A stretch of DNA of 64,000 nucleotides from Stomorhina lunata (taxonomy: Eukaryota > Arthropoda > Insecta > Diptera > Rhiniidae): NCBI GenBank assembly GCA_933228675.1, contig OW121740.1:155547828-155611827 (forward strand), given 5' to 3'. This document shows, one piece after another, positions 12,916 through 34,555 of this stretch; the first letter of the stretch is position 1, and the number at the start of each line of letters is the position of its first letter. The translations under genes were made by a program, and so were the position numbers. Below the pieces are notes generated by a model. It was not told where the DNA came from, did not search any database, and saw only the letters and a list, made by a program, of their open reading frames with translations.

Positions 12916-13135
12916 TCCAAAAAAATTTTCTATAAAAAAAATTTTCATAGAAAAATTTTTGATAAAAAAATTTTCATAGAAAAATTTTTGATAAAAAAAT
13001 TTTCTATAGAAAAATTTTTGACAAAAAATTTTTCAATGAAAAATTTTTGATAAAAAATTTTTTAGAAAAAACTTTTTGATAAAAAATTTTTTATAAAAAA
13101 ATTTTCCATACAAAAATTTGTTTATGAAAAATGCT
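12916..13135. repeat. short A/T minisatellite next to the dispersed element
   Basis: Degenerate units of the form AATTTTCATAGAAAAATTTT, about 28-30 bp, between the dispersed element and the hammerhead-bearing block. Confidence 0.8.
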
Positions 13136-13164
13136 TCACAGCATTCTGCATATAGTAGCCGACG

Positions 13165-13485
13165 GCTTCAGCAAGAATGTGGGAAGTGAAGGTAGATGAA
13201 AGCTGAAAAATGTTTGTTTTTGTTCAGTCGATAATCTACGCTTTTACTTTTGGTTTATGAACATAATTCAAAAAAGTTATGTTTGTAAATTTAGTAATAA
13301 TGCGAGGTTTTTGATCTGTCTAAATTGGGGATAATCCTCCTGAAGAGATGGCTTAACCAACCATCGAAACGCGTCGAAGAATTTGGTTTCCCCGCAAACA
13401 TTTTTTGGCTTTTTATCAATAAATTGGTCTGTTACATTAATAAATAAATGTAACAGATTTGGGATCAAATGCGAATACACTTCTT
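13165..13485 (+). mobile_element. hammerhead-bearing conserved block, copy 1 (Penelope-like/retrozyme candidate)
   Basis: About 320 bp of complex sequence embedded between A/T arrays and repeated at 17958-18240 and 18525-18785. In order it holds: a GTGGGAAGTGAAGG start; the AATAATGCGAGG stretch; a hammerhead ribozyme (13327-13393); and a 10-bp inverted repeat CTGTTACATT...AATGTAACAG. The copies are conserved in the ribozyme but embedded in different repeats. Minus-strand frames here (13277-13480) are shadows of the conserved block. The ribozyme suggests a piece of a Penelope-like retroelement LTR or a related non-autonomous element. No reverse transcriptase or GIY-YIG coding is present in the window. 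Confidence 0.7.
13327..13393 (+). ncRNA. type I hammerhead ribozyme, copy 1
   Basis: All conserved core elements appear in order. Distal stem I is GGGGA (13327-13331), pairing with TCCCC (13389-13393). The CUGANGA box is CTGAAGA (13340-13346). Stem II is GATGG (13347-13351) with CCATC (13361-13365). The GAAA box is 13366-13369, and the cleavage triplet GTC ends at 13375. Stem III is the self-complementary ACGCGT, too short to fold alone. This is the situation described for Penelope-like element hammerheads, which act as dimers. Core-proximal stem I pairs are C-G and T-A, with a mismatch next. RNA activity is inferred, not shown. Confidence 0.75.
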
Positions 13486-13489
13486 TTTG

Positions 13490-15080
13490 AAGAAAAAATT
13501 TTATAAAAAAAATATTCTATAGAAAATTTTTTTAAGAAATTTTATTTGAAAATTTTCTATAGAAAAATTTTATATGAAAAATTTTCTATAGAAAAATTTT
13601 ATATGAAAAATTTTCTATAGAAAATTTTTATATGAAAAATTTTCTATAGAAAATTTTTATATGAAAAGTTTTCTATAGAAAATTTTTATATGAAAAATTT
13701 TCTATAGAAAATTTGTATATGAAAAATTTTCTATAGAAAATTTTTATATGAAAAATTTTCTATAGAAAATTTTTATATGAAAAATTTTCTATAGAAAATT
13801 TTTATATGAAAAATTTTCTATAGAAAATTTTTAAATGAAAAATTTTCTATAGAAAATTTTTATATGAAAAATTTTCTATAGAAAATTTTTATATGAAAAA
13901 TTTTCTATAGAAAATTTTTATATGAAAAATTTTCTATAGAAAATTTTTATATGAAAAATTTTCTATAGAAAATTTTTATATCAAAAATTTTCTATAGAAA
14001 ATTTTTATATGAAAAATTTTCTATAGAAAATTTTTATATGAAAAATTTTCTATAGAAAATTTTTATATGAAAAATTTTCTATAGAAAATTTTCATATGAA
14101 AAATTTTCTATAGAAAATTTTCATATGAAAAATTTTCTATAGAAAATTTTCATATGAAAAATTTTCTATAGAAAATTTTCATATGAAAAATTTTCTATAG
14201 AAAATTTTTATATGAAAAATTTTCTATAGAAAATTTTTATATGAAAAATTTTCTATAGAAAATTTGTATATGAAAAATTTTCTATAGAAAATTTTTATAT
14301 GAAAAATTTTTTATAGAAAATTTTTATATGAAAAATTTTCTATAGAAAATTTTTATATGAAAAATTTTCTATAGAAAATTTTTATATGAAATATTTTCTA
14401 TAGAAAATTTTTATATGAAAAATTTTCTATAGAAAATTTTTATATGAAAAATTTTCTATACAAAACTTTTATATGAAAAATTTTCTATAGAAAATTTTTA
14501 TATGAAAAATTTTCTATAGAAAATTTTTATATGAAAAATTTTCTATAGAAAATTTTTATATGAAAAATTTTCTATAGAAAATTTTTATATGAAAAATTTT
14601 CTATAGAAAATTTTTATATGAAAAATTTTCTATAGAAAATCTTTATATGAAAAATTTTCTATGAAAAATTTTCTATAGAAAAATTTTCTATGAAAAATTT
14701 TCTTTAGAAAAATTTTTTATGAGAGCTTTTCTGTAGAAAATTTTTATATGAAAAGTTTTCAATAGAAAAATTTTATATGAACATTTTCTGCAGAAAAATT
14801 TTATACAAAAAAAATTCTATATAAAAATTGTACTTGCAGAATTTTCTATAAAAAAAATTTTGTATGAAAAATTTTCTGAATAAAATTTACATACGTATGT
14901 AAAGTTTCTAATAAAATATGAAAAATATTCTATAGAAAAATTTTGTATAGAGAAATTGTATATTAAAAATTTTCTATTGAAAAATTTTCTATGAAAATTT
15001 TCTACAGAAAAATTTTGTATGAAAAATTTCCTATAGAAAAATTTTCTATAAAAAAATTGTGTATACAACAATTTTATATG
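13490..15080. repeat. 29-bp A/T satellite array (ATATGAAAAATTTTCTATAG)
   Basis: Homogeneous array of about 45 units of 29 bp: ATATGAAAAATTTTCTATAG plus AAAATTTTT (period measured 13862 to 13891). ATTTTCTATAGAAAAT is a perfect palindrome within each unit. Homogeneity is highest from 13560 to 14640 and falls off at both ends, as expected for unequal exchange. The long minus-strand frame ending in this block (14817-15236) is repeat-derived. Confidence 0.95.
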
Positions 15081-15081
15081 A

Positions 15082-15104
15082 CAGACTGAAAGCCAGACAG
15101 ACAG

Positions 15105-15137
<33 letters not shown>
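15082..15137. repeat. (GACA)n microsatellite
   Basis: Tetranucleotide run of GACA with few interruptions (one GGAC variant) at the junction between the 29-bp array and unique sequence. Its reverse frame gives the meaningless Ser-Val-Cys-Leu repeat peptide. Similar GTCCGTCCGTCTG tracts occur inside the DINE-like elements here, so it may have started from one. Confidence 0.9.
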
Positions 15138-15139
15138 TA

Positions 15140-16760
15140 ACACGGGTAATGCCGGGTTTAGACATCTCTTTTTAAATAAACTTGTTCTTTTAATTTCAAA
15201 TTCAATTAACACATCACAATTTATCACAAAATCCATAATTTTATAATTATTAAATATTGTATTTGAACATAAATGAAATCAGAGTAAACAATTCAAAATT
15301 AAATTGGCTAAAAAACAACAGAAAAAATTAAAACATTTAATAAATATTGCAATAAATGTGAATGTGTAAATAATTTATTAACTATTAACAACAAATACCA
15401 ATAAATAGCAAATACTTATTTAAGCTTAACACTATTAAATATTTAAAATTTATAAATCTCCTCTAGTGAATATTTAAAAAAAAAGTTATATCTGTAAATA
15501 ATTATTTATAATCGAATTTAAAATAAAAAATTCTTATATATATAAAATTATGTAAATATTTATAATATTTAAATAAAATTACAAAAATAATTTACTTTAC
15601 TTTTGTCGATTGAAGAATGAAAAATACACAGGAACTGACCAACAAAAAATATATATATATAAAACATAAAAATAACAATCAAATAAAATCACTAACAAAC
15701 AATAAACGAAAAAAAATATTTATAGAAAAATATAAAATTAAATTTACAACATAATTGCATTTGCATTAATTCTACATAATAAATGAAACATTATTAAATA
15801 TTATTGTGTTCAAGTACACGAATGAATAAATGAATGAGCGAATGAATGAATGAATGAACCAATAAATGAAATGAGCGAATGAATGGATGAATGTATGTTA
15901 AATATTTGTATAAATATTTAAATTATAAATATGAATAACTTTTTCGTAGTAATGCCAAATATTAATAATAATAAAATTAATACAACAAACAACAAAATTT
16001 TCTGCATTAAATATTAAATTATTCATTGTGCATTCAATTACTTTTTGCATTTAAAAAATCATTTTACAAATAATCAACATTCACATCATTATCATCCTCA
16101 TCATCATCATCCTCATCAACAACATCATAATCATCATCATTATACGCATAAACATAAGTAAATAAATGTGTAAATTTAATTTAACATAAAACAGTAATAA
16201 AATTATTACAAAATAAATAATACTTTACTTATGCTCGTATTTAACTATAAATATTTATTTAAACAATAAAAATGTTAAATACCGAAAACCAATAATTAAA
16301 TAAATAATTTAATGCGCGAAAACTTTTTAATTGGCCACAAAAGGGATTTCTGAAATATTTGCATTTTAAAAAATGAAATCAGCCCTATTCCAGAAAGAAC
16401 ATTTCCCTTATCAAGAACCAAATCTACAAAATTCTTTACAACAATAACACAAAAATGACAATGAACTTAAAAGGAATATTTGTTTTATTTAAAATTGTTT
16501 GCTATAATTCTCAAATATCTTTGTTTTTCCTCTCAATGCTGGAATAGAGCTGATTTATTTCCCCAGTTGATCTAAAATAAAATAGAAAACTAAAATTCCT
16601 AAAAAATTTGTATATAAAAAAATACTAAAATTGGAAAGACCCTAAACTGTAGCCGCATTTGTTCATTACACTCACAAATTATATCCTATAATGAAATCAA
16701 AATAAAATTTTAAATCTTAACTCCTAATTGTTATAATTCCTATAAAATCTAATTAAAATT
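15140..16760. other. single-copy AT-rich region before the ratchet site
   Basis: Unique, very AT-rich sequence with two simple repeats: a GAAT/GAGC tetranucleotide run at about 15823-15893 and an ATC trinucleotide run at about 16088-16140. The sequence becomes more complex (16370-16700) on approach to the candidate recursive splice site. No coding exon can be seen. Confidence 0.6.
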
Positions 16761-16792
16761 TAATCTTCTTTTTCTTTCTTTTACAGGTAAGT
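16746..16792 (+). promoter_or_regulatory. candidate recursive splice site (zero-length exon, ratchet point)
   Basis: A pyrimidine tract, CTTCTTTTTCTTTCTTTTA, ends in the acceptor CAG (to 16786). The acceptor is followed without any exon by a perfect donor, GTAAGT (16787-16792). A branch-point-like CTAAT is about 37 bases upstream (near 16750). This fused acceptor-donor is the defining signature of ratchet points in very long fly introns, where the intron is removed in steps. It is the only site in the window with both halves at consensus. If used, it puts this part of the window inside a plus-strand intron. A chance juxtaposition is possible but unlikely at this quality. Confidence 0.7.
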
Positions 16793-16979
16793 TTCGATTT
16801 CTGTAGCATCATAATTTTACAATTATAAACCAGGGCTGGATATGTTTAATAACTTAACAAAAAAAAGGTCTCAAATCAATTCCATAATATGTTTAGGCTA
16901 AGAACAGAATCTCAAGAGAAAACCTCACAGGTAATTTAAAAAGTTTAGAATTAAAAGGGTTAGAATTAAATAAAAGACG

Positions 16980-17950
16980 AAACGATAAAAAATTTTAAAA
17001 ACAAAAATTTCACAAGAAAAATGTCGAATTTCCATATAAAGTTTTTCGATCGTAAAATTTCTCAATAGAATTTTTCTGATCAAAAGTTTTCATAAAAAAT
17101 TTCTAGAGAAAATTTTTCATACAAAAATTGAAAATTTTTCTAAAGGAAATTTTTTATATAAAATTTGTCTATACAAAATTTTTCATATAAAAATTTTTCT
17201 ATAGAAAATTTCTCAATAGAATTTTTCTGATCAAAAGTTTTCATAAAAAATTTCTATAGAAAATTTTTTTAAAAAAGATATCTACAAAAAATTTTCATAC
17301 ACAAATTTTTCTATAGAAAATTTTTCATACAAAAATTGAAAATTTTTCATACAAAAATTGAAAATTTTTCATACAAAAATTGAAAATCTTTCATACAAAA
17401 ACTGAAAATTTTTCATACAAAAATTGAAAATTTTTCATACAAAAATTGAAAATTTTTCATACAAAAATTGAAAATTTTTCATACAAAAATTGAAAATTTT
17501 TCTAAAGAAAATTTTTTATGTAAAATTTGTCTATAGAAAATTTTTCATATAAACATTTTTCTATAGAAAATTTCTCTAAAGAAAATTTTTTATACAAACA
17601 TTTTTTTTATTGAAATTTTCATATTAAAATTTTCTATAGGAAATTTTTCATATGAAATTTTGTTATTCAAAATTTTTTATATAAAACTTTGTCATTAAAA
17701 AATTTTCATTTACAAATTTTTCTGTAGAAAATATTTCATATACAAATTATTCTATAGAAAATTTCTTTATAGAAAATTTTTCTATAGAAATTTTTTTTAT
17801 AAAATTTTTTTTAGAAAAATTTTCATATAAAAAATTTAATATAAAATTTTTCATAGAAAAATTTCCTATAGAAAATTTTTCATAGAAAAATTTCCTATAG
17901 AAAATTTTTAAATTTTCTATAGAAAATTTTTCATAGAAAAATTTGTATAT
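16980..17950. repeat. A/T minisatellite, mixed units
   Basis: Degenerate units of TTTTTCTATAGAAAATTTTT and TTTTTCATACAAAAATTGAA. The second type forms a small homogeneous 23-bp sub-array at about 17310-17500 (TTTTTCATACAAAAATTGAA steps), nested in the longer 28-30-bp repeat. Confidence 0.9.
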
Positions 17951-17957
17951 AGAAAAA

Positions 17958-18240
17958 AATGTGAGAAGTGAAGAAAGATGATCTATGCTTTTACTTATGG
18001 TTTATGAACATAATTCTGAAAGGTTTTGTTTGTAAAATAAGTAATAATGCGAGGTTTTCGATCTGTCTAAATCGGGGATAATCCTCCTGAAGAGATGGTC
18101 TTACCAACCATCGAAACGCGTCGAGAAATTTTGGTTTCTCCGCAAACAATTTTTGGCATTTTATCAATAAATTGGTCAGTTACATTAATAAATAAATGTA
18201 ACAGATTTGGGATCAAATGCGAATAGTCATTCTTTTAGAA
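17958..18240 (+). mobile_element. hammerhead-bearing conserved block, copy 2
   Basis: Same block as at 13165-13485, lacking a little of its left part. It keeps the ribozyme and the CAGTTACATT...AATGTAACAG inverted repeat (about 18177-18204). It is part of the 588-bp tandem duplication with copy 3. Confidence 0.7.
18074..18141 (+). ncRNA. type I hammerhead ribozyme, copy 2
   Basis: Distal stem I is GGGGA (18074-18078) with TCTCC (18137-18141, one G-U pair). Proximal stem I is CTC/GAG. CTGAAGA is at 18087-18093. Stem II is GATGGT (18094-18099) with ACCATC (18107-18112), a perfect 6 bp. GAAA is at 18113-18116 and the GTC cleavage triplet ends at 18122. This is the best-paired of the three copies. 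Against copy 1 the loop and distal stem sequences vary while pairing is kept, as expected if structure was selected. Confidence 0.78.
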
Positions 18241-18524
18241 AACTTTTTATATACATTTTTTTGGGAATTAATTAAATTTTTTTATATAAAATTTTTCTGT
18301 AGATTTTTTATAAAAATTTTTCGTACAAAAATTTTTCTATAGGAAAATTTTCATTTAAAATTCTTATATAGAAAAGTTTTCTATCGAAAATTTTTCATAT
18401 AAATAAATATAATATAAATAAAATTTTTCTATGGAAAATTTTTCATATAAAAATTTCCTATGAAAAATTTCTAAATTTTCTATAGAAAATTTTTCATACA
18501 AAAATTTTTATATAGAAAAAAATG
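18241..18524. repeat. A/T minisatellite between hammerhead blocks
   Basis: Degenerate ATATAAAATTTTTCTGTAGA-type units. They belong to the 588-bp duplicated segment. Confidence 0.8.
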
Positions 18525-18785
18525 TGGGATGTGAAGGAAGATGAAAACTGAAAATTGTTTGTATTTTGTCATACGCTTTTACTTATGGTTTATGAACATA
18601 ATTCTGAAAGGTTTTGTTTGTAAAATAAGTAATAATGCGAGGTTTTCGATCTGTCTAAATCGGGGATAATCCTCCTGAAGAGATGGTCTTACCAACCATT
18701 GAAACGCGTCGAGAAATTTTGGTTTCTCCGCCAACAATTTTTGGCTTTTTATCAATAAATTGGTCAAATGCGAATAGTCATTCTT
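18525..18785 (+). mobile_element. hammerhead-bearing conserved block, copy 3 (38-bp deletion)
   Basis: Third copy of the block. Compared with copy 2 it lacks the segment holding the TTACATT...AATGTAA inverted repeat. The deletion ends lie at a TCA shared by GGTCA and GGATCA, so the loss looks like slippage or microhomology repair across a hairpin. The minus-strand frame 18579-18767 and plus-strand frame 18683-18892 are shadows. Confidence 0.7.
18662..18729 (+). ncRNA. type I hammerhead ribozyme, copy 3
   Basis: CTGAAGA is at 18675-18681. Stem II is GATGGT (18682-18687) with ACCATT (18695-18700), whose closing pair is now G-U. GAAA is at 18701-18704 and GTC ends at 18710. Distal stem I GGGGA (18662-18666) again faces TCTCC. 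The core is intact, with stem II slightly weakened compared with copy 2. Confidence 0.72.
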
Positions 18786-18789
18786 TTAG

Positions 18790-21400
18790 AAAACTTTTTA
18801 TATACATTTTTTGGGAATTAATTAAATTTTTTTATATAAAATTTTTCTGTAGATTTTTTATAAAAATTTTTCGTACAAAAATTTTTCTATAGGAAAATTT
18901 TCATTTAAAATTCTTATACAGAAAAGTTTTCTATAGAAAATTCTTCATATCAAATTTTTCTATATTTCATAGAAAATTTTTCTATAGAAAATATTTCATA
19001 GAAAATGGTTCTATAGAAAATTTTTCGTATAAAATTGTTCCATAGAAATTTTTTTATATAAAAGTTTTATATAGAAAATTATTTATCTAAAAGTTTTTTT
19101 CAGAAAATTTTACATAAAAGTTTTTTCTAAAATTTTTAATATAAAAGTTTTCTACAGAAAATTTTTCGTATAAAGTTTTCTACAGAAAATTTTTCATATA
19201 CAAGTTTTTACAGAAAGTTTTTCATACAAAAATTTTCCGAAAACTATTTATTTATATAAATATTTTTCTATAAAAACTTTTTCATATAAAAATTTTTCTG
19301 CAAAAAATTTGTAATATAACAATTTTTCTATAGAAAATTTTTTCATTGTTCATTTAAATATTTTACTTAAGAAAATTTTTCATATAAAGTTTTTTTTTTA
19401 GAAAATTTGTTACTTACACTAAAATTTTTATTTAGAAAATTTTTCATATAAAAATATAAATTTTTCTTTGGAAAATTTTTCATATAAAAAATTTTCATTA
19501 GAAAATAAAAATTTTTGTAAATAGAAAATTTTTCATATAAATTTGTCTATATAAAATTTTTTGTCTACAGAAAATTTTTCATGTAAAAATTTTCTACAGA
19601 AAATTTTTCATAAAAAAATTTTATACCGAAATTTTTTGTAAAAAAATTTTCTACCGAAAATTTTTCATTGATTATACAAAATTTTTCATAAAAAAATTTT
19701 CATACAAAAATTTTCATATAAATTTTTTCTATAGAAAATGTTTAAACAAAATTTTTCTAGAAAATTTTTCATATAAAAAAGTTTCTATAAAAAATTTTTC
19801 ATATAAAAATTTTTCTGTAGAAATTTGTTTATTTTAAAAATTTTCTATAGATAATTATTTATATAAAAATTTTTGTAAATAAAATTTTTCATATAAAAAT
19901 TTGTCTATAGAAAATTTTTCATACAAAAATTTTTCTTTAGAAAATTTTTCATATTAAATATGTCTATACAAAATTGTTCATACAAAAATTTTTCTATAGA
20001 AATTTTTTCATATAAAAGTTTTCCACAGAAATTTGTCTACCGAAAATTTTTCATAAAAAAAAGTTTATACAGAAATTTTTTGTAAAAATTTTTCTACCGA
20101 AAATTTTTCATATAAAATTGATTATACAAAATTTTTCATACAAAATTTTCCATATAACATTTTTCTTTAAAATTGTTTAAATAAATTTTTTCTAAAAAAA
20201 TTGTTTATAGAAAATTTTTCATATAAAAATTTTTCTATAAAAAATATTTCATATAAAAATTTTTCTATAAAAAATTTTTCATATAAAATTTTTTTATTTT
20301 AAAAATTTTCTATGGATAATTTTTTATATAAAAATTTTTGTAAATCAAATTTTTCATATAAAAATTTGTCTATAGAAAATTTTTCATACAAAAATTTGTC
20401 TATAGAAAATTTTTCATACAAAAATGTTTCTTTAGAAAATTTTTCATATAAAATTTTTCTATAGAAAATTTTTCATGTAAAATTTTTCTATAGAAAATTT
20501 TTCATTTAAAATTTTTCATATAAAATTTTTCTCAAAAAATTTTGCATATAAAATTTTTCTATAGAAAATTTTTCATATAAAATTTTTCTATAGAAAATTT
20601 TTCGTATAAAATTTTTCTATAGAAAATGATTCATATAAATAGTTTTGTAGATAAAAACAAATTTGTCTATAGAAAATTGTTCATATAAAAATTTGTCTAT
20701 ATAAAATTTTTCGTACAAAAATTTTTCTATAGAAATTTTTTCATATAAAAAAAAATTCATTTAAAAATTTTCCACAGAAATTTGTCTACAGAAAATTTTT
20801 CATAAAAAAATTTTATACAGAAAATTTTTTATATAAAATTTTTTTAAAGACAATTTTTCATATAAAATTGTTCATATAAAATTTTTTATATAAAATTTTT
20901 CATAAAAAATTTTTTATATAAAATTTTTCTATAAAAAAATTTTCATATAAAATTCTTCATACAAAATTTTTCTTAAAAAAAAATTTTTATAGAAAATTTT
21001 TCATATAAAAATTTTTCTATTAAAATGTTTCATATAAAAATTTTTCTGTAGAAAATTCTTTTATATGAAAAATTTTCTATAGATAATTTTTTGAATAAAA
21101 ATTTTTGTAAATAAAATTTTTCATATAAAAATTTATCTATGGAAAATTTTTCATAAAAAAAATTTTTCTATAGAAAATTTTTTATAAAAAAATTTTTCTA
21201 TAGAAAATTTTTCTGTAAAATTTTTCAATCAAAAATTTTTCATATAAAATTTTTCTTTAAAAAATTTTTCAAAGAAAATTTTTCATTCAAAATTTGTTAA
21301 TAGAAATTTTTCATACAAAATTTTTCTATATAAAATTTTTCTCTAGAAAAGTTTTCTATAGAAATTTATCCATATAAAATGTTGGACAGAAAATCTTAAT
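18790..21400. repeat. degenerate A/T minisatellite (TTTTTCATATAAAAATTTTT)
   Basis: Long array of about 28-30-bp units, TTTTTCATATAAAA with ATTTTTCTATAGAAAA. Divergence is much greater than in the 13.5-kb array. Short internal direct repeats of several units (for example near 19600-19760 and 20040-20160) suggest past block duplications. Confidence 0.9.
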
Positions 21401-27110: not shown

Positions 27111-29100
27111 GGCACTCTATAGTTGGCTTATTACTACGACTATAGTTATCTCCAACGATATTCGACTCTGCCTATAGTCGAATCTGTCTAAAGTCGACTC
27201 TAACTATAGTCGACTCTGACTATAGTCGACTTTGACTACAGCTGACTCTGAATATAGTCGACTCTGACTGTAGCCGACCCCGACCATGGTCGACTCTGAT
27301 TATAGCCGACTCTGACTATAGTCGACTATGACTATAGTCGACACTGACTATAGTCGACTCTGACTATAGTCGACTCTGACTATAGTCGACTCTGACTATA
27401 GTCGGCTCTGACTATAGTCGACTCTGACTATAGTCGACTCTGACTATAGTCGACTCTGACTATAGTCAACTCTGACCATAGTCGACTCTGACCATAGTCG
27501 ACTTTGACTATAGTCGACATTGACTATAGTCGACTCTGACTATAGTCGACTCTGACTATAGTCGACTCAGACTATAGTCGACTCAGACTATAGTAAACTT
27601 TGACTATAGTCGACTTTGGCGACAGTCGATTCTAACTATAGTTGACTCTGACTAAAGTCGACTCTGACTATAGTCGACTCTGACTATAGTTGACTCTGAC
27701 CATAGTTGACTCTGACTATAGTCGACTCTGACTATAGTCGACTCTGACTATAGTCGACTCAGACTATAGTCAACTTTGACTATAGTCGACTTTGACGACA
27801 GTCGACTCTAACTATAGTTGACTCTGACTTTTGTCGAGTCTGACTATAGCCGACTCTGACTATAGCCGACTCTGACTATAGTCGACTCTGACTATAGTCG
27901 ACTCAGACTATTGTCGACTATGACTATAGTCAACTCTGACTATAGTCGACTTTGACTACAGTCGACTCTGACTGTAGTTGACTCCGACTATACTCGACTT
28001 TGACTATAGCCGACTCTGACTATAGTCGACTCTGACTATAGTCGACTGTGACTGCAGTCGACTCCGACTACAGTCGACTCTGACTATATTCGACTCTGAC
28101 TATAATCGACTCTGACTAAAGTCTATTTTCGACCATACTCGACATTGATAAAATCGACTCTGACTATAGTCGACTCTGACTATAGTCGACTCTGACTATA
28201 ATCGACTCTGACTATAGTCTATTTTCGACCATACTCGACATTGACTATAGTCGACTCTGACTATAGTCGACTCTGACTATAGTCGAATCTTACTTAAATC
28301 GACTCTTACTATAGCCTACTATAGTCTATAGGCTACAGACTATGATTATATTGTTCTTTAACTCTGTTAATTCTGACTTTAGTCGAGTGTGACTATAGAC
28401 AACTTTTACTATAATTTACTCTGCTCAAAAGTTGGCTTCGACTATAGTCTAATCTTACTATATTCTACTCTGACTATAGGCGGAGCATACTGTAGTTAAC
28501 TCTGAATTTGGCAAATTCTGATAGTCAACTCTTTTGATTATGACTAAAGTCGACCCTGATTATCTACTGACTGTAGTCGATATTGACTATAGTCGATATT
28601 CACTATAGTCGATATTGACTATATTCGATATTGACTATAGTCGATACTGACTATAGTCGACACTGACTATAGTCGATACTGATTATAGTCTATACTGACT
28701 ATAGTCGTTACTGACTATAGTCGATAATGACTATATAGTCGACACTGACCATAGTCGATACTGACTATATTCGATACTGACTATAGTCGATACCGATTAT
28801 AGTCGATACAGACTATAGTCGATACTGAATTTAGTCGATATTGGCTATGGTCGATACTGACTATAGTCGATACTGACTAAAGTCGATACCAACTTTAGTC
28901 GATACTGACTATAGTCGATACTGAATATAGTCGATACTGACTATAGTCGTTACTGACTATAGTCGATACTGACTATAGTCGATACTGACTATAGTCAATA
29001 CTGATTATATTCCAGACTGACTATAAATTATACTGACTTCAGTCGACTTTAAATATAGTATACTCTGACTATAGGCGATTCTGACTATTACAATTGACCC
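27111..29100. repeat. 16-bp SalI-site-rich satellite (CGACTCTGACTATAGT)
   Basis: Array of the 16-bp unit CGACTCTGACTATAGT with more than 100 units. Each unit carries the perfect 10-bp palindrome GACTATAGTC overlapping AGTCGACT, so GTCGAC (SalI) occurs at very high density. From about 28565 the array switches sharply to a second subfamily, CGATACTGACTATAGT, which runs to about 29000. Transition zones are rich in variants. Confidence 0.95.
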
Positions 29101-30295: not shown

Positions 30296-33175
30296 GACTA
30301 AGGTCGACGTTGTCTAAATCGATTATCGAATCTGACTATTGATGACTCTATTATCTAGTCGACTTTGACTACAAATAATTGTAGTCGAAGTCTACTTTAA
30401 ACAAAGCTTCTGGCTATAGTCGACTCTGACAACTGTCGATTCTGACTATATTCGACTTTGACTGTATTTGATTCTAACTGAAGTCTACTCTGACCAAAGA
30501 AGAATCTGACTATAGTCGATTCGGATTATATTCAACACTGACTTAGTCTACTCCAACTACAGTAGACTCCGACTATAGTCGACACTATCTATTGTCGATT
30601 TTGACTATATTGGACTGTGTCTATAGTATACTCTAACTACAGTCGACTATAGTCTATTCTAACTACAGTCAACTCTATCAACAGTAGAATCTGACTATAG
30701 TCGACTTTGACTATAGTCGACTCTGACTATAGCTGACTCTGGCTATAATCGACTCTGACTATAGTCGACTCTGAATATAATAGACTCTGACTACAGTTTA
30801 ATCTGACTACAGTCGACTTTGATTATAGTCCACTCTGACTATAGTCGGCTCTGACTATAGTCGATTCTGACTATAGTCGACTCTGGATTTAGGCGAATCA
30901 GACTATAGTCGACTCTGACGGTAATCGACTCTGACTCTAGTCGACTCTGACTATAGTTGTCTTGGACTATATTCGACTCTAACTAAAGTTGACGCTGACT
31001 TTAGCGTACTCTGTCGATTCTGACTATAGTCAACTCTGACTATAGTCGACTCTGACTATAGTCGACTCTGACTATAGGCGACTCTGACTATAGGCGACTC
31101 TGACTATAGTCGATTCTGACTACAGTAGACTCTGACTATAGTCCACTCTGACTATAGTCAACTCTATCAATAGTAGACTCAGACAATAGTCTACTCTGAC
31201 CATAGTCGACTCTTACTATAGTCGACACCTACTGTAGTCGAATCTGACTGCAGTAGATTCTGACTATAGTCGACACTAACTATAGTCTAATTTGAATATA
31301 GTCTACTCTGACTAAAGTCGTCTCTGACTTTAGTCGACTCAGACTGTAGTCGACTCTGATTATAGTAGACCCTGACTACAGTTTAATCTGACAACAGTCG
31401 ACTTTGATTATAGTCGACTCTGACTATAGTCGACTCTGACCATAGTCGATTCTGACTATAGTCGACTCTGACTTTAGCCGACTCTGACTACAGTCGAATC
31501 CTACTGTAGTCGACTCTGACTACAGTAGACTCTGACTATAGTCGACACTGGCTATAGTCGACTCCTACTGTAGTCGAATCTGACTATAGTCTGACTATAG
31601 TCGACTCTCACTCTAGTCGAATTTGAATTTAGTCGACGTTGACTAAAGTCGTCTCTGACTATAGTCGACTCTGACTACAGTCGAATCCTACTGTAGTCGA
31701 CTCTGACTTTAGCCGACTCTGACTACAGTCGACTCTGACTACAGTAGACTCTGGCTATAGTCGACACTGGCTATAGTCGACTCCTACTGTAGTCGAATCT
31801 GACTATAGTCTGACTATAGTCGACTCTCACTCTAGTCGAATTTGAATATACTCGACGTTGACTAAAGTCGTCTCTGACTATAGTCGACTCTGACTACAGT
31901 CGAATCCTACTGTAGTCGACTCTGACTTTAGCCGACTCTGACTACAGTCGAATCCTACTGTAGTCGACTCTGACTATAGTCAACTCTATCAATAGTAGAC
32001 TCAGACAATAGTCTACTCTGGTCATAGTCGACTCTGACTATAATCGACTCTGACTTTAGTAGACTCTGACTACAATTTAATCTGACTATAGTTGACTTTG
32101 ATTATAGTCGACTCTGACTATAGTCGATTCTAACTGCAGTCTACTCTGACTTTAGTCGACTCTTACAATAGGCGACTCTTACTATAGTCGACTCCTACTG
32201 TAGTCGAATCTGACTGCAGTAGATTCTGGCAATAGTCGACACTAACTATAGTCGAATTTGAATATAGTATACTCTGACTAAAGTCGTCTCTGACTTTAGT
32301 CGACTCAGACTGTAGTCGACTCTGATTATAGTAGACCCTGACTACAATTTAATCTGACAACAGTCGACTTTGATTATAGTCGACTCTGACTATAGTCGAC
32401 TCTGACCATAGTCGATTTTGACTATAGTCGACTCTGACTTTAGCCGACTCTGACTACAGTCGAATACTACTGTAGTCGACTCTGACTACAGTAGACTCTG
32501 ACTATAGTCGACACTGGCTATAGTCGACTCCTACTGTAGTCGAATCTGACTATAGTCTGACTATAGACGACTCTCACTCTAGTCGAATTTGAATATAGTC
32601 GACGTTGACTAAAGTCGTCTCTGACTATAGTCGACTCTGACTACAGTCGAATCCTACTGTAGTCTACTTTGACTACAGTAGACTCTGACTATAGTCGACT
32701 CTGGATATTTTCGAATCTGACTATAGTCGAATCTGACTATAGTCGACTCCTACTGTAGACGAATCTGACTGCAGTAGACTCTGACCATAGTCGACTCTCA
32801 CTCTAGTCGAATATGAATATAGTCGACTTTGACTAAATTCGTCTCTGGCTATAGTCGACTCTGACTATACTCTACTCTGACTATAGTAGACTCTGTCTTT
32901 AGTAGACTCTGACTACAGTCGAATCCTACTGTAGGCGACTCTGACAACAGTAGACTCTGACTAAAATCGACTCCGGATATTTACGAATCTGACTATAGTC
33001 GACTTTTAATATAGTAGATATTGACTATAGTTGACTCTGACTATAGTCGACTATGTCTATAGTCGATTCTGTCTATTGTCGACTCTGGTTATAGTCGACT
33101 CTGACTACAGTAGACTCTGACTATAGTAGACCTTGACTATAATCGACTCTGACTAAAGTCGATTTTGTGCTAGTA
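30296..33175. repeat. 16-bp SalI-rich satellite, second block with higher-order repeat
   Basis: The same 16-bp family, more varied. From about 31210 a higher-order unit of 966 bp is repeated: ACTAAAGTCGTCTC starts at 31311 and 32277, and GTCGACGTTGACTAAAG recurs at the same offset. A 219-bp sub-duplication lies inside the first unit (31634 to 31853). Variants such as CCTACTGTAGTCGAAT and TAGTAGACCCTGAC mark the register. Confidence 0.93.
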
Positions 33176-34555
33176 GTCTCCAACATAATTTGACTTATAT
33201 CAAAGTTAATTTTTAATTTTTCTTAAATTTTGTTTCAAGAAATCTTTTCAATTTGTGTCCGCCTTACAAAAAGCACATTCCAGTTGCTCCCTTAAAAATA
33301 CTCAAAAATATGCTTTTATTCATTTACTATTTTTCACCCCAAAAAGCATAAAGTAAATCTGAAACTCTTGAACATTTTTAAACGTTTCAACACCTTAATT
33401 AAATAAGATAATTATTAAATATTTTTTTTTATATGCCCCCAAAAAAATGTAAAATAAAAACAACAAAAAATCCCCAAAACCTGTAAAGGATCTTCAAAAA
33501 GAGAAACGGAAAACAAATATTATAAAGTGTTAAAAAGTTAAAACCACTTTTGAATAAGATTATAAGCATTTAGTAGCTGTGAAATGAAAAAAGATTTTTT
33601 CAAGAATTTTTCAGTTTTTATTTTTGTTAAACGAAAGGGAATACTTAAAGTAAGGCAAAGAAAGAAAGAAACAAAAAAAAAATGGTGTAGTAACTTAGTG
33701 CTACTAACTAGTGGCTTGTTATATAACTGGAGGGAAAACCAGACCCTAGAGATGAAAAACAAACAACAGCACAAACAAACAAAAAATATTTAAACTAATA
33801 TTAGACAAAAGACAAAGTTCGGGGAGATCTAAATAGATGCAACACAACATAGAAAACTTTAAGCAAAAATCCCCAAAAAAAAAAGTTATAAACATTCAAC
33901 AAAAGTAACAGGACCAAACAATTTTTAAAGCACGCACAGGGAAATTATTAAATAATTGAAAGAACAACTGAATTTGACTTGGAAGTTTTTGCTGCTCCGT
34001 AGAGTTACTTCTAAAGAGGAAATGGAAATTGGATAATTTTTGTTAGAAAAAAAAACAACGTTTTCTCAAAAAACTCAAACCGGAATTGTATTGTATAAAA
34101 GGCTAAACAGTAGCTGGTAGAGCTTTATATGTACTTTTCTTTCCTTCGAACAAATGTTTTCATTTAACCAGAAATAAAAATTAAGGCAGAGTTCAGAGTT
34201 ATTATATATGGGAGTAAATTTCCAAGTGCAGATAGTTTACTTTTTTAAAGTATTTTAGGTACTTGTTGAAAGCCTTTTTCAAATGCCGCATAGTTCGCTA
34301 AGTATAAAAACACCCAAAATTTTAAATAACAAGAATATATATTTTTTTTTAATTTTTCCTTTAATTTAGGTTATTTGAAGATGGTTGTTCTATTTTGTAT
34401 ACCGTATCTTAGAAACGACTTATCCAATTTTATTGAATAAGACATCAATGGATTAAAACAAAAATTACCTCTAAGACGTGCTAACACAAGTTTTTTGTGT
34501 TATCAACGGTTTTAAAGTTATTTATATCGCAACGTAATATTTTTTTTTTTTTTTT
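33176..34555. other. single-copy AT-rich spacer
   Basis: Unique sequence with poly-T/A runs. The paired frames 33538-33774 (-) and 33584-33793 (+) overlap and are low-complexity (Lys/Asn or Phe/Leu). No splice sites or domains are seen. The last part (from about 34380) may belong to the diverged DINE-like copy that follows. Confidence 0.55.

Follow-up and report, generated by a model that had tools for sequence, protein, structure and literature searches.

What are the three blocks with intact hammerhead ribozyme cores that lie dispersed in a stretch of 64,000 nucleotides from the fly Stomorhina lunata (GenBank assembly GCA_933228675.1, contig OW121740.1, positions 155,547,828 to 155,611,827 of the forward strand; hereafter the window), and which machinery could have brought them there? 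With good confidence we regard them as copies of a non-coding retrozyme without long terminal repeats (LTRs), here called F1, which would carry a dimer-type hammerhead and be moved by the enzyme of a Penelope-like element (PLE). In the sample read, the insertions of F1 and of a sister family, F2, carry a PLE signature, and their junctions add anatomical evidence that suggests a PLE as the driver.

The starting point is a set of motifs that were read directly in the window, all on the plus strand:

13327..13393, plus strand: type I hammerhead copy 1, with distal stem I GGGGA/UCCCC and proximal stem I UCCUC/GAAGA (one mismatch); its core consists of CUGAAGA, a 5-bp stem II, GAAA and ACGCGU
13375..13376, plus strand: predicted cleavage site of copy 1 (GUC^G), position from the sequence
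18074..18141, plus strand: type I hammerhead copy 2, from the sequence and a strict descriptor
18122..18123, plus strand: predicted cleavage site of copy 2, position from the sequence
18662..18729, plus strand: type I hammerhead copy 3, from the sequence and a strict descriptor
18710..18711, plus strand: predicted cleavage site of copy 3, position from the sequence

All three show the type I order (CUGANGA, stem II, GAAA, a stem III ending in UH and a stem I open at both ends), and stem III is the self-complementary ACGCGU in each; the three cores were found where the original prediction had placed them. The cut positions that it had named also agree, as positions only, since GAAACGCGTC terminates at exactly 13375, 18122 and 18710, the predicted GUC cleavage positions. 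With up to three mismatches allowed, the window contains the 25-base ribozyme head GGGGATAATCCTCCTGAAGAGATGG three times, and none of 100 shuffles contains it. The strict descriptor (CUGANGA, stem II of at least 4 bp, GAAA, stem III ending in UH, stem I of at least 3 contiguous bp) matched copies 2 and 3 and no site in 100 dinucleotide shuffles; copy 1 was missed because of its stem I mismatch. The stem I pairing that had been drawn is present distally in copy 1 (GGGGA/UCCCC), but proximal stem I is intact in no window copy. In the family majority, GUC^GAGGA pairs with UCCUC; copy 1 has GAAGA and copies 2 and 3 have GAGAA, so one pair is lost in each. The base of stem II in copy 3 is a G-U pair (CCATT). 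Copies 2 and 3 represent a local duplication with a spacing of 588 bp that includes the flanking minisatellite, and the three motifs are therefore not independent. Judged by their sequence, they are real type I hammerheads for which self-cutting is predicted.

Searches of the source genome (728 Mb in 104 contigs) placed the blocks in a large family. A query of 121 bases around copy 2 yielded 1393 first-look candidates (40 scored, 43 matches), a second one on the 5' region yielded 1542 candidates, and the copies are spread over many contigs. The intact-core pattern CCTCCTGANGA..GAAACGCGTCGAG has 3,524 exact matches in the genome (1764 + 1760), and the reversed control has none on either count (0 + 0). 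In an alignment of 29 loci, from which L122 was left out as it overlaps L121, 5' truncation is variable and the 3' end is sharp. Sixteen of the 38 copies read in the 5' direction continue for at least 91 nt, via a linker, into the 3' part (tail) of another copy. F1 is a head-to-tail tandem unit of about 466 bp, with ribozyme-to-ribozyme spacings of 466 bp (L177) and 469 bp (L184). In the reference unit the ribozyme occupies positions 186-255, the cut falls after 234, and the two 3' end sites are 352 (A) and 392 (B). The 5' ends are graded, and 16 of 38 lie 0-15 nt upstream of GCATTCTG, immediately downstream of a C-tract (e.g., L132, L163, L166, L164 and window position 13134), as if synthesis had stalled or transcription had begun there; a series of 5' ends set by the ribozyme was rejected on account of this gradation and clustering. 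One place (C1:9582584-9584094) has a shorter, satellite-like layout of six clustered intact hammerheads, with 185 bp in three of the five gaps.

Against this reference, the blocks in the window can be described as follows:

12919..13132, no strand: AT-rich 15/29-bp minisatellite to the left of copy 1 (window repeat analysis)
13134..13491, plus strand: F1 copy 1, a near-complete unit, 92% identical to F1 unit positions 1-364
13494..15081, no strand: AT-rich 29-bp minisatellite starting at the end of copy 1 (window repeat analysis)
17131..17956, no strand: AT-rich minisatellite stopping at the start of copy 2 (window repeat analysis)
17958..18240, plus strand: F1 copy 2, 5'-truncated and with a small internal deletion, 96.9% identical to F1 unit positions 89-348
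18518..18791, plus strand: F1 copy 3, the duplicate of copy 2, 91.4% identical to F1 unit positions 33-289
18823..19496, no strand: AT-rich minisatellite following copy 3 (window repeat analysis)

Copy 1 reaches from the 5' region with CTTCACAGCATTCTG as far as site A, one of the two 3' ends (TTCTTTTTGAA), copy 2 ends close to site A, and copy 3 is without the GTTACATTAATAAATAAATGTAAC hairpin segment. The blocks are near-complete or 5'-truncated units, and their edges are insertion ends beside AT minisatellite.

A divergent neighbour at locus L170 led to F2, a sister family with a unit of 488 bp. Its search gave 1147 candidates, and all 40 scored places are 99-100% identical over 161 bases; 11 of them stand in tandem at a spacing of 486-489 bp, and the ribozymes of L185 and of L186 are 488 bp apart. 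A 74-base stretch with the ribozyme is the same in 16 of 19 fetched pieces, differs by one base in two and runs off the piece in one. The F2 core is the canonical CUGAUGA, a change at the single free position of CUGANGA, and proximal stem I is full (UCCUC/GAGGA). Four F2 copies at different places (L187, L201, L210 and L214) have common flanks and, from their sequence, are one insertion multiplied as part of another repeat.

To which class do these families belong? Like the metazoan non-LTR retrozymes of PMC7229834, both are short, low-G+C tandem repeats with a type I hammerhead, and the longest stop-free frames of the tandems encode 62 aa in F1 and 85 aa in F2 at a G+C content of 33% and 31%, respectively. 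With 466-488 bp the units are slightly longer than the published 150-450 bp (PMC7229834). Size, tandems, low G+C and the lack of a long frame fit animal non-LTR retrozymes, and insects are mentioned among the carriers (PMC7229834). Inspection by eye, no search being made, showed neither an LTR nor a primer binding site nor a polypurine tract, and a tRNA-type short interspersed element was set aside when no box A or B was seen by eye, without a tRNA search. The units have no open reading frame (ORF) for reverse transcriptase (RT) or GIY-YIG endonuclease and no frame above 85 aa; F1 and F2 are therefore not PLEs themselves, and they insert like PLEs. The original prediction of a type I hammerhead with dimer-type stem III in a repeated fly retroelement is borne out. 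Of the two options it left, pieces of a PLE or of a retrozyme, the latter fits. Near the blocks no coding part of a PLE was detected, the 10 open frames there having no Pfam match at threshold; the same holds for 20 open frames of the window, and no frame of 100 aa runs across the window copies. By these features F1 is an abundant non-coding retrozyme family of a fly, i.e., a new family of a known class.

The insertion ends are more specific. The 3' ends were readable in 74 of 90 F1 pieces, which count one locus twice (L121 is the same as W2): site A is the end of 33 and site B that of 26, another 7 continue into a tandem, and the last 8 stop elsewhere. The 19 F2 copies end at A (12) or B (7) and never elsewhere. 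In both families the sites are about 40 nt apart, giving an optional "tail", and in F2 both end in CTTTTTAA; a probe for the tail matched 46 of 2400 random pieces. Inverted neighbours are one-sided. Among 60 F1 sources (59 independent loci), 23 have a 5'-5' (head-to-head) neighbour, none has a 3'-3' (tail-to-tail) neighbour, and direct neighbours occur in 20. For F2, head-to-head neighbours were seen in 5 of 19 and an inverted piece on the 3' side in none, in stretches of only 601 bp. Of 25 F1 composites, 15 were readable at both outer ends, which are A/B in 9, A/A in 6 and B/B in none, so that the tail is found at a single end in 9 and is missing from both ends in 6, and no composite has it twice. 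Many copy edges, which were not counted, adjoin AT-rich minisatellite.

An ordinary tandem satellite with a hammerhead-like sequence, spread by DNA recombination, would agree with the tandem arrays, with the one cluster of about 185-bp spacing, with the local duplication of window copies 2 and 3 and with the common flanks of some F2 copies. The spread of copies across many contigs, the sharpness of the two 3' ends, the gradation in 5' truncation and the strict bias in orientation speak against it, however, and it seems to us hardly credible. Insertion by long interspersed nuclear elements (LINEs), with inverted neighbours from twin priming, could explain the 5' truncation, which is common in LINE-type insertion; twin priming leaves one 3' end, however, and every composite read at both ends (15/25) has two outer 3' ends at A or B, therefore two separate starts of synthesis. 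LINEs have been named beside PLEs as possible retrozyme drivers (PMC7229834), but a pair of fixed start sites separated by 30-40 nt is a trait of PLEs (PMC11167929), and we judge LINEs to be very unlikely drivers.

Both characteristics of F1 and F2 insertion are found in PLEs, namely, two RT start sites 30-40 nt apart that give an optional tail and inverted copies that stand head-to-head, not tail-to-tail. In endonuclease-containing PLEs the pseudo-LTRs (pLTRs) are direct and inverted, most often head-to-head. One inverted pLTR may carry a tail of 31 bp, target duplications are 8-10 bp long or absent, and integration in trans needs no more than pLTR sequences (PMC3846280). The tail is accounted for by two internal RT start sites, and the enzyme cuts and extends both strands at AT-rich targets (PMC11167929).

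Such elements are present in the same genome. A search with PF01541 gave two matches (L188, L189) among 14 candidates; in L188, a GIY-YIG frame of 143 aa (29.3 bits against a cut-off of 22.6) precedes a minimal hammerhead. With this frame as the query, 206 candidates were obtained, and all 150 scored matched in the endonuclease domain, several of them within frames that stay open for 830-865 aa. In L198, the frame of 831 aa matches RVT_1 (38.8 bits, cut-off 29.6); GIY-YIG is not listed for it at E <= 0.1, and its end matches the L188 endonuclease query at 66%. Named relatives of the PLE protein, among 120 listed of 301, are fly proteins from Musca, Haematobia, Lucilia, Eurosta and Drosophila, and a Drosophila virilis protein among the matches listed is 48% identical. 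Thirty-six pairs of endonuclease neighbours within 6 kb are head-to-head (25) or direct (11) and in no case tail-to-tail.

Minimal hammerheads were read in the PLE copies L188/L190, L193, L194 and L197, and that of L195 looks defective by eye. In L191 and in L192/L196, which belong to PLEs whose frames measure 831 and 864 aa, UUGAAAA stands in place of CUGANGA with stems I, II and III kept, i.e., the C3-G8 pair is replaced by U3-A8, as already described for natural hammerheads (PMC3088659); the L192 type has 20 places by exact pattern and none in the reversed control. Stem III is palindromic (AUAU or ACGU) in all six PLE types parsed, which differ in stems I and II yet still pair (one representative each, no statistic). 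Downstream of the PLE in L191, two tail-like F1 remnants (ATCCCGACAATTTT; 396-436 and 522-569) lie in AT minisatellite and are perhaps extremely truncated retrozyme insertions.

The resemblance raises the question of whether the units are themselves PLE derivatives, either solo pLTRs or internally deleted copies, such that the unit would be the terminal repeat, without an ORF, of a non-autonomous PLE. The units share with PLE copies the anatomy of insertion and a type I hammerhead that lies close to the 3' end, and solo pLTRs have been described (PMC3846280). On the other side, the F1/F2 hammerhead differs, in that its stem I is extended and contains an internal loop and its stem III is ACGCGU, versus AUAU/ACGU in the parsed PLE copies; the units have no extended similarity to nine sampled PLE 3' ends, which represent part of the PLE families; and the unit builds its own tandems of near-fixed length. 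A derivation from PLEs is, in our estimation, unlikely.

We return to a separate retrozyme mobilised by PLE proteins, for which we infer cleavage, action as a dimer, the RNA form used and the driver as follows. Head-to-tail tandem copies would be transcribed. Stem III (ACGCGU) would form fully only between two ribozymes, so that the palindrome would join two hammerheads, which would then cleave the RNA after GUC. The PLE RT/endonuclease of the same genome would use as its template either RNA of unit length, linear or circular, or tandem RNA that had stayed uncut, and would cut both strands of an AT-rich target. Synthesis of cDNA could start at either internal site, about 118 or about 158 nt downstream of the cleavage site, and 5'-truncated copies, partial tandems and head-to-head pairs with outward 3' ends would result.

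A number of results weigh against this reading, some with respect to the ribozyme and some with respect to insertion. The covariance-model hit above threshold that had been proposed as a test was not obtained, since the Rfam scan of the window at gathering level gave no hits, nor did that of the F2 loci L185-L187. In short stretches, the best match of copy 1 is Hammerhead_1 (RF00163; 18.5 bits, threshold 34), copy 2 matches Hammerhead_3 (18.4 bits, threshold 48.5), and the F2 ribozyme of L187 reaches 22.0 bits over the full model 1-45 of Hammerhead_1 (RF00163; threshold 34); an E-value scan over 8 kb of the window listed no hammerhead and was dominated by AT-rich microRNA matches. These scores may be low because the type I model expects a looped stem III, which these ribozymes do not have. 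A type III hammerhead was considered and rejected: the Rfam type III match of copy 2 uses a local GGGGAUAAUCCUC hairpin, but by eye the bases that follow GAAA form no pairs with those that precede it. In 53 distinct copies, mostly F1 and five of them divergent, 94.1% of the stem cells are paired, and covariation of the stems in these F1-dominated rows is not above shuffles. Predicted monomer folds differ from the hammerhead in four sequences, and the constrained fold, whose computation included neither stem III nor tertiary contacts, is weaker than the free fold by 1.7-5.0 kcal/mol (constrained/free, in kcal/mol: -11.6/-16.6, -13.2/-16.7 and -11.4/-14.2 for the window copies, -14.4/-16.1 for F1 locus L147). 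As the monomers do not fold as a hammerhead, the models make the dimer more likely than the monomer as the active form.

With respect to insertion, the excess of one-tailed composites over independence is not significant (15 composites), and in a target-duplication test on 11 F2 copies, the signal present stems from minisatellite targets. No RNA signal common to the retrozyme units and the nine sampled PLE 3' ends was found beyond short matches, the two strongest of which fall in tail-like remnants within minisatellite. Moreover, the PLE start site shows no difference between strands, and ribozyme cleavage is not needed for PLE insertion in vitro (PMC11167929).

Could the hammerhead resemblance then be due to chance, or be a dead relic without RNA function? 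The missing Rfam hits at threshold, the stem I pair lost in each window copy and the alternative folds of the monomers would agree with that. The absence of shuffled sites, the thousands of exact cores, the variation between families at the free core position and a core that is better conserved than its flanks argue against it, and we consider it highly implausible. F1 and F2 are 85.7% identical in the hammerhead and 92.3% in the 39-base core segment, versus 70.7% in the 150 bases upstream of the ribozyme and 67.9% downstream. Together with the absent covariation, this indicates that the F1-dominated copies decay and that constraint shows between families only. The original view of a ribozyme conserved while its flanks decayed therefore finds no support: the block edges are insertion ends, covariation does not exceed shuffles, and better conservation of the ribozyme is confined to the between-family comparison.

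Apart from the F1 copies, the window harbors long diverged arrays of a 16-bp GACTATAGTCGACTCT-like unit (27160-29100 and 30300-33180), with 75-83% identity at one period in the parts measured and a G+C content much above the rest. Outside the fly genome, a pattern scan of viral contigs gave at least 120 unspecific stretches, and narrower scans of viral and prokaryote contigs gave none.

PLEs have been called a "strong candidate" for retrozyme drivers, since type I hammerheads and a tandem arrangement are common to both and the two are found together (PMC7229834). Among the titles and beginnings of abstracts listed, none dealt with retrozyme junctions that bear a PLE signature, and other literature may contain it; the terms hammerhead, ribozyme and retrozyme do not occur in the part consulted of a paper on Drosophila virilis transposons (PMC12910113). 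What appears to be new is that the insertions of F1 and F2 bear this signature, and the evidence on how the family inserts is unusually clear. The junctions turn the idea of a PLE driver for animal retrozymes into a specific, testable claim, in a genome that combines abundant retrozymes, near-identical and hence young copies, and PLEs with long open frames; for the PLE assay in vitro described in PMC11167929, F1 and F2 offer a short template of natural origin. That PLE machinery mobilises animal retrozymes, and that retrozyme RNA is a natural parasite template of co-existing PLE proteins, we regard as reasonably likely.

Among the known systems compared, PLEs with minimal type I hammerheads have the same 3' ends, tail, head-to-head pairs and AT-rich surroundings; in contrast to them, F1 and F2 are without a long frame, and stem I of their hammerhead is longer and has an internal loop. 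Insertion ends, resolved here with PLE features, are not discussed in the part consulted of PMC7229834, which describes for amphibian retrozymes a weak palindromic stem III that acts as a dimer, as proposed for F1. In the satellite hammerheads of newt and axolotl, helix III is a single pair with a palindromic tetraloop and the dimer is more active, which ACGCGU fits (PMC7229834). Host and unit sequence of these satellites differ from those of F1 and F2. A further case is the species given as "... aegypti", which we take to be Aedes and, if so, a mosquito of the same insect order. Its hammerheads have a palindromic stem III/loop III and are of the dimer type like that of F1, a likeness by description only, whereas a 10-bp stem in the dimer sets them apart from F1 (PMC3088659).

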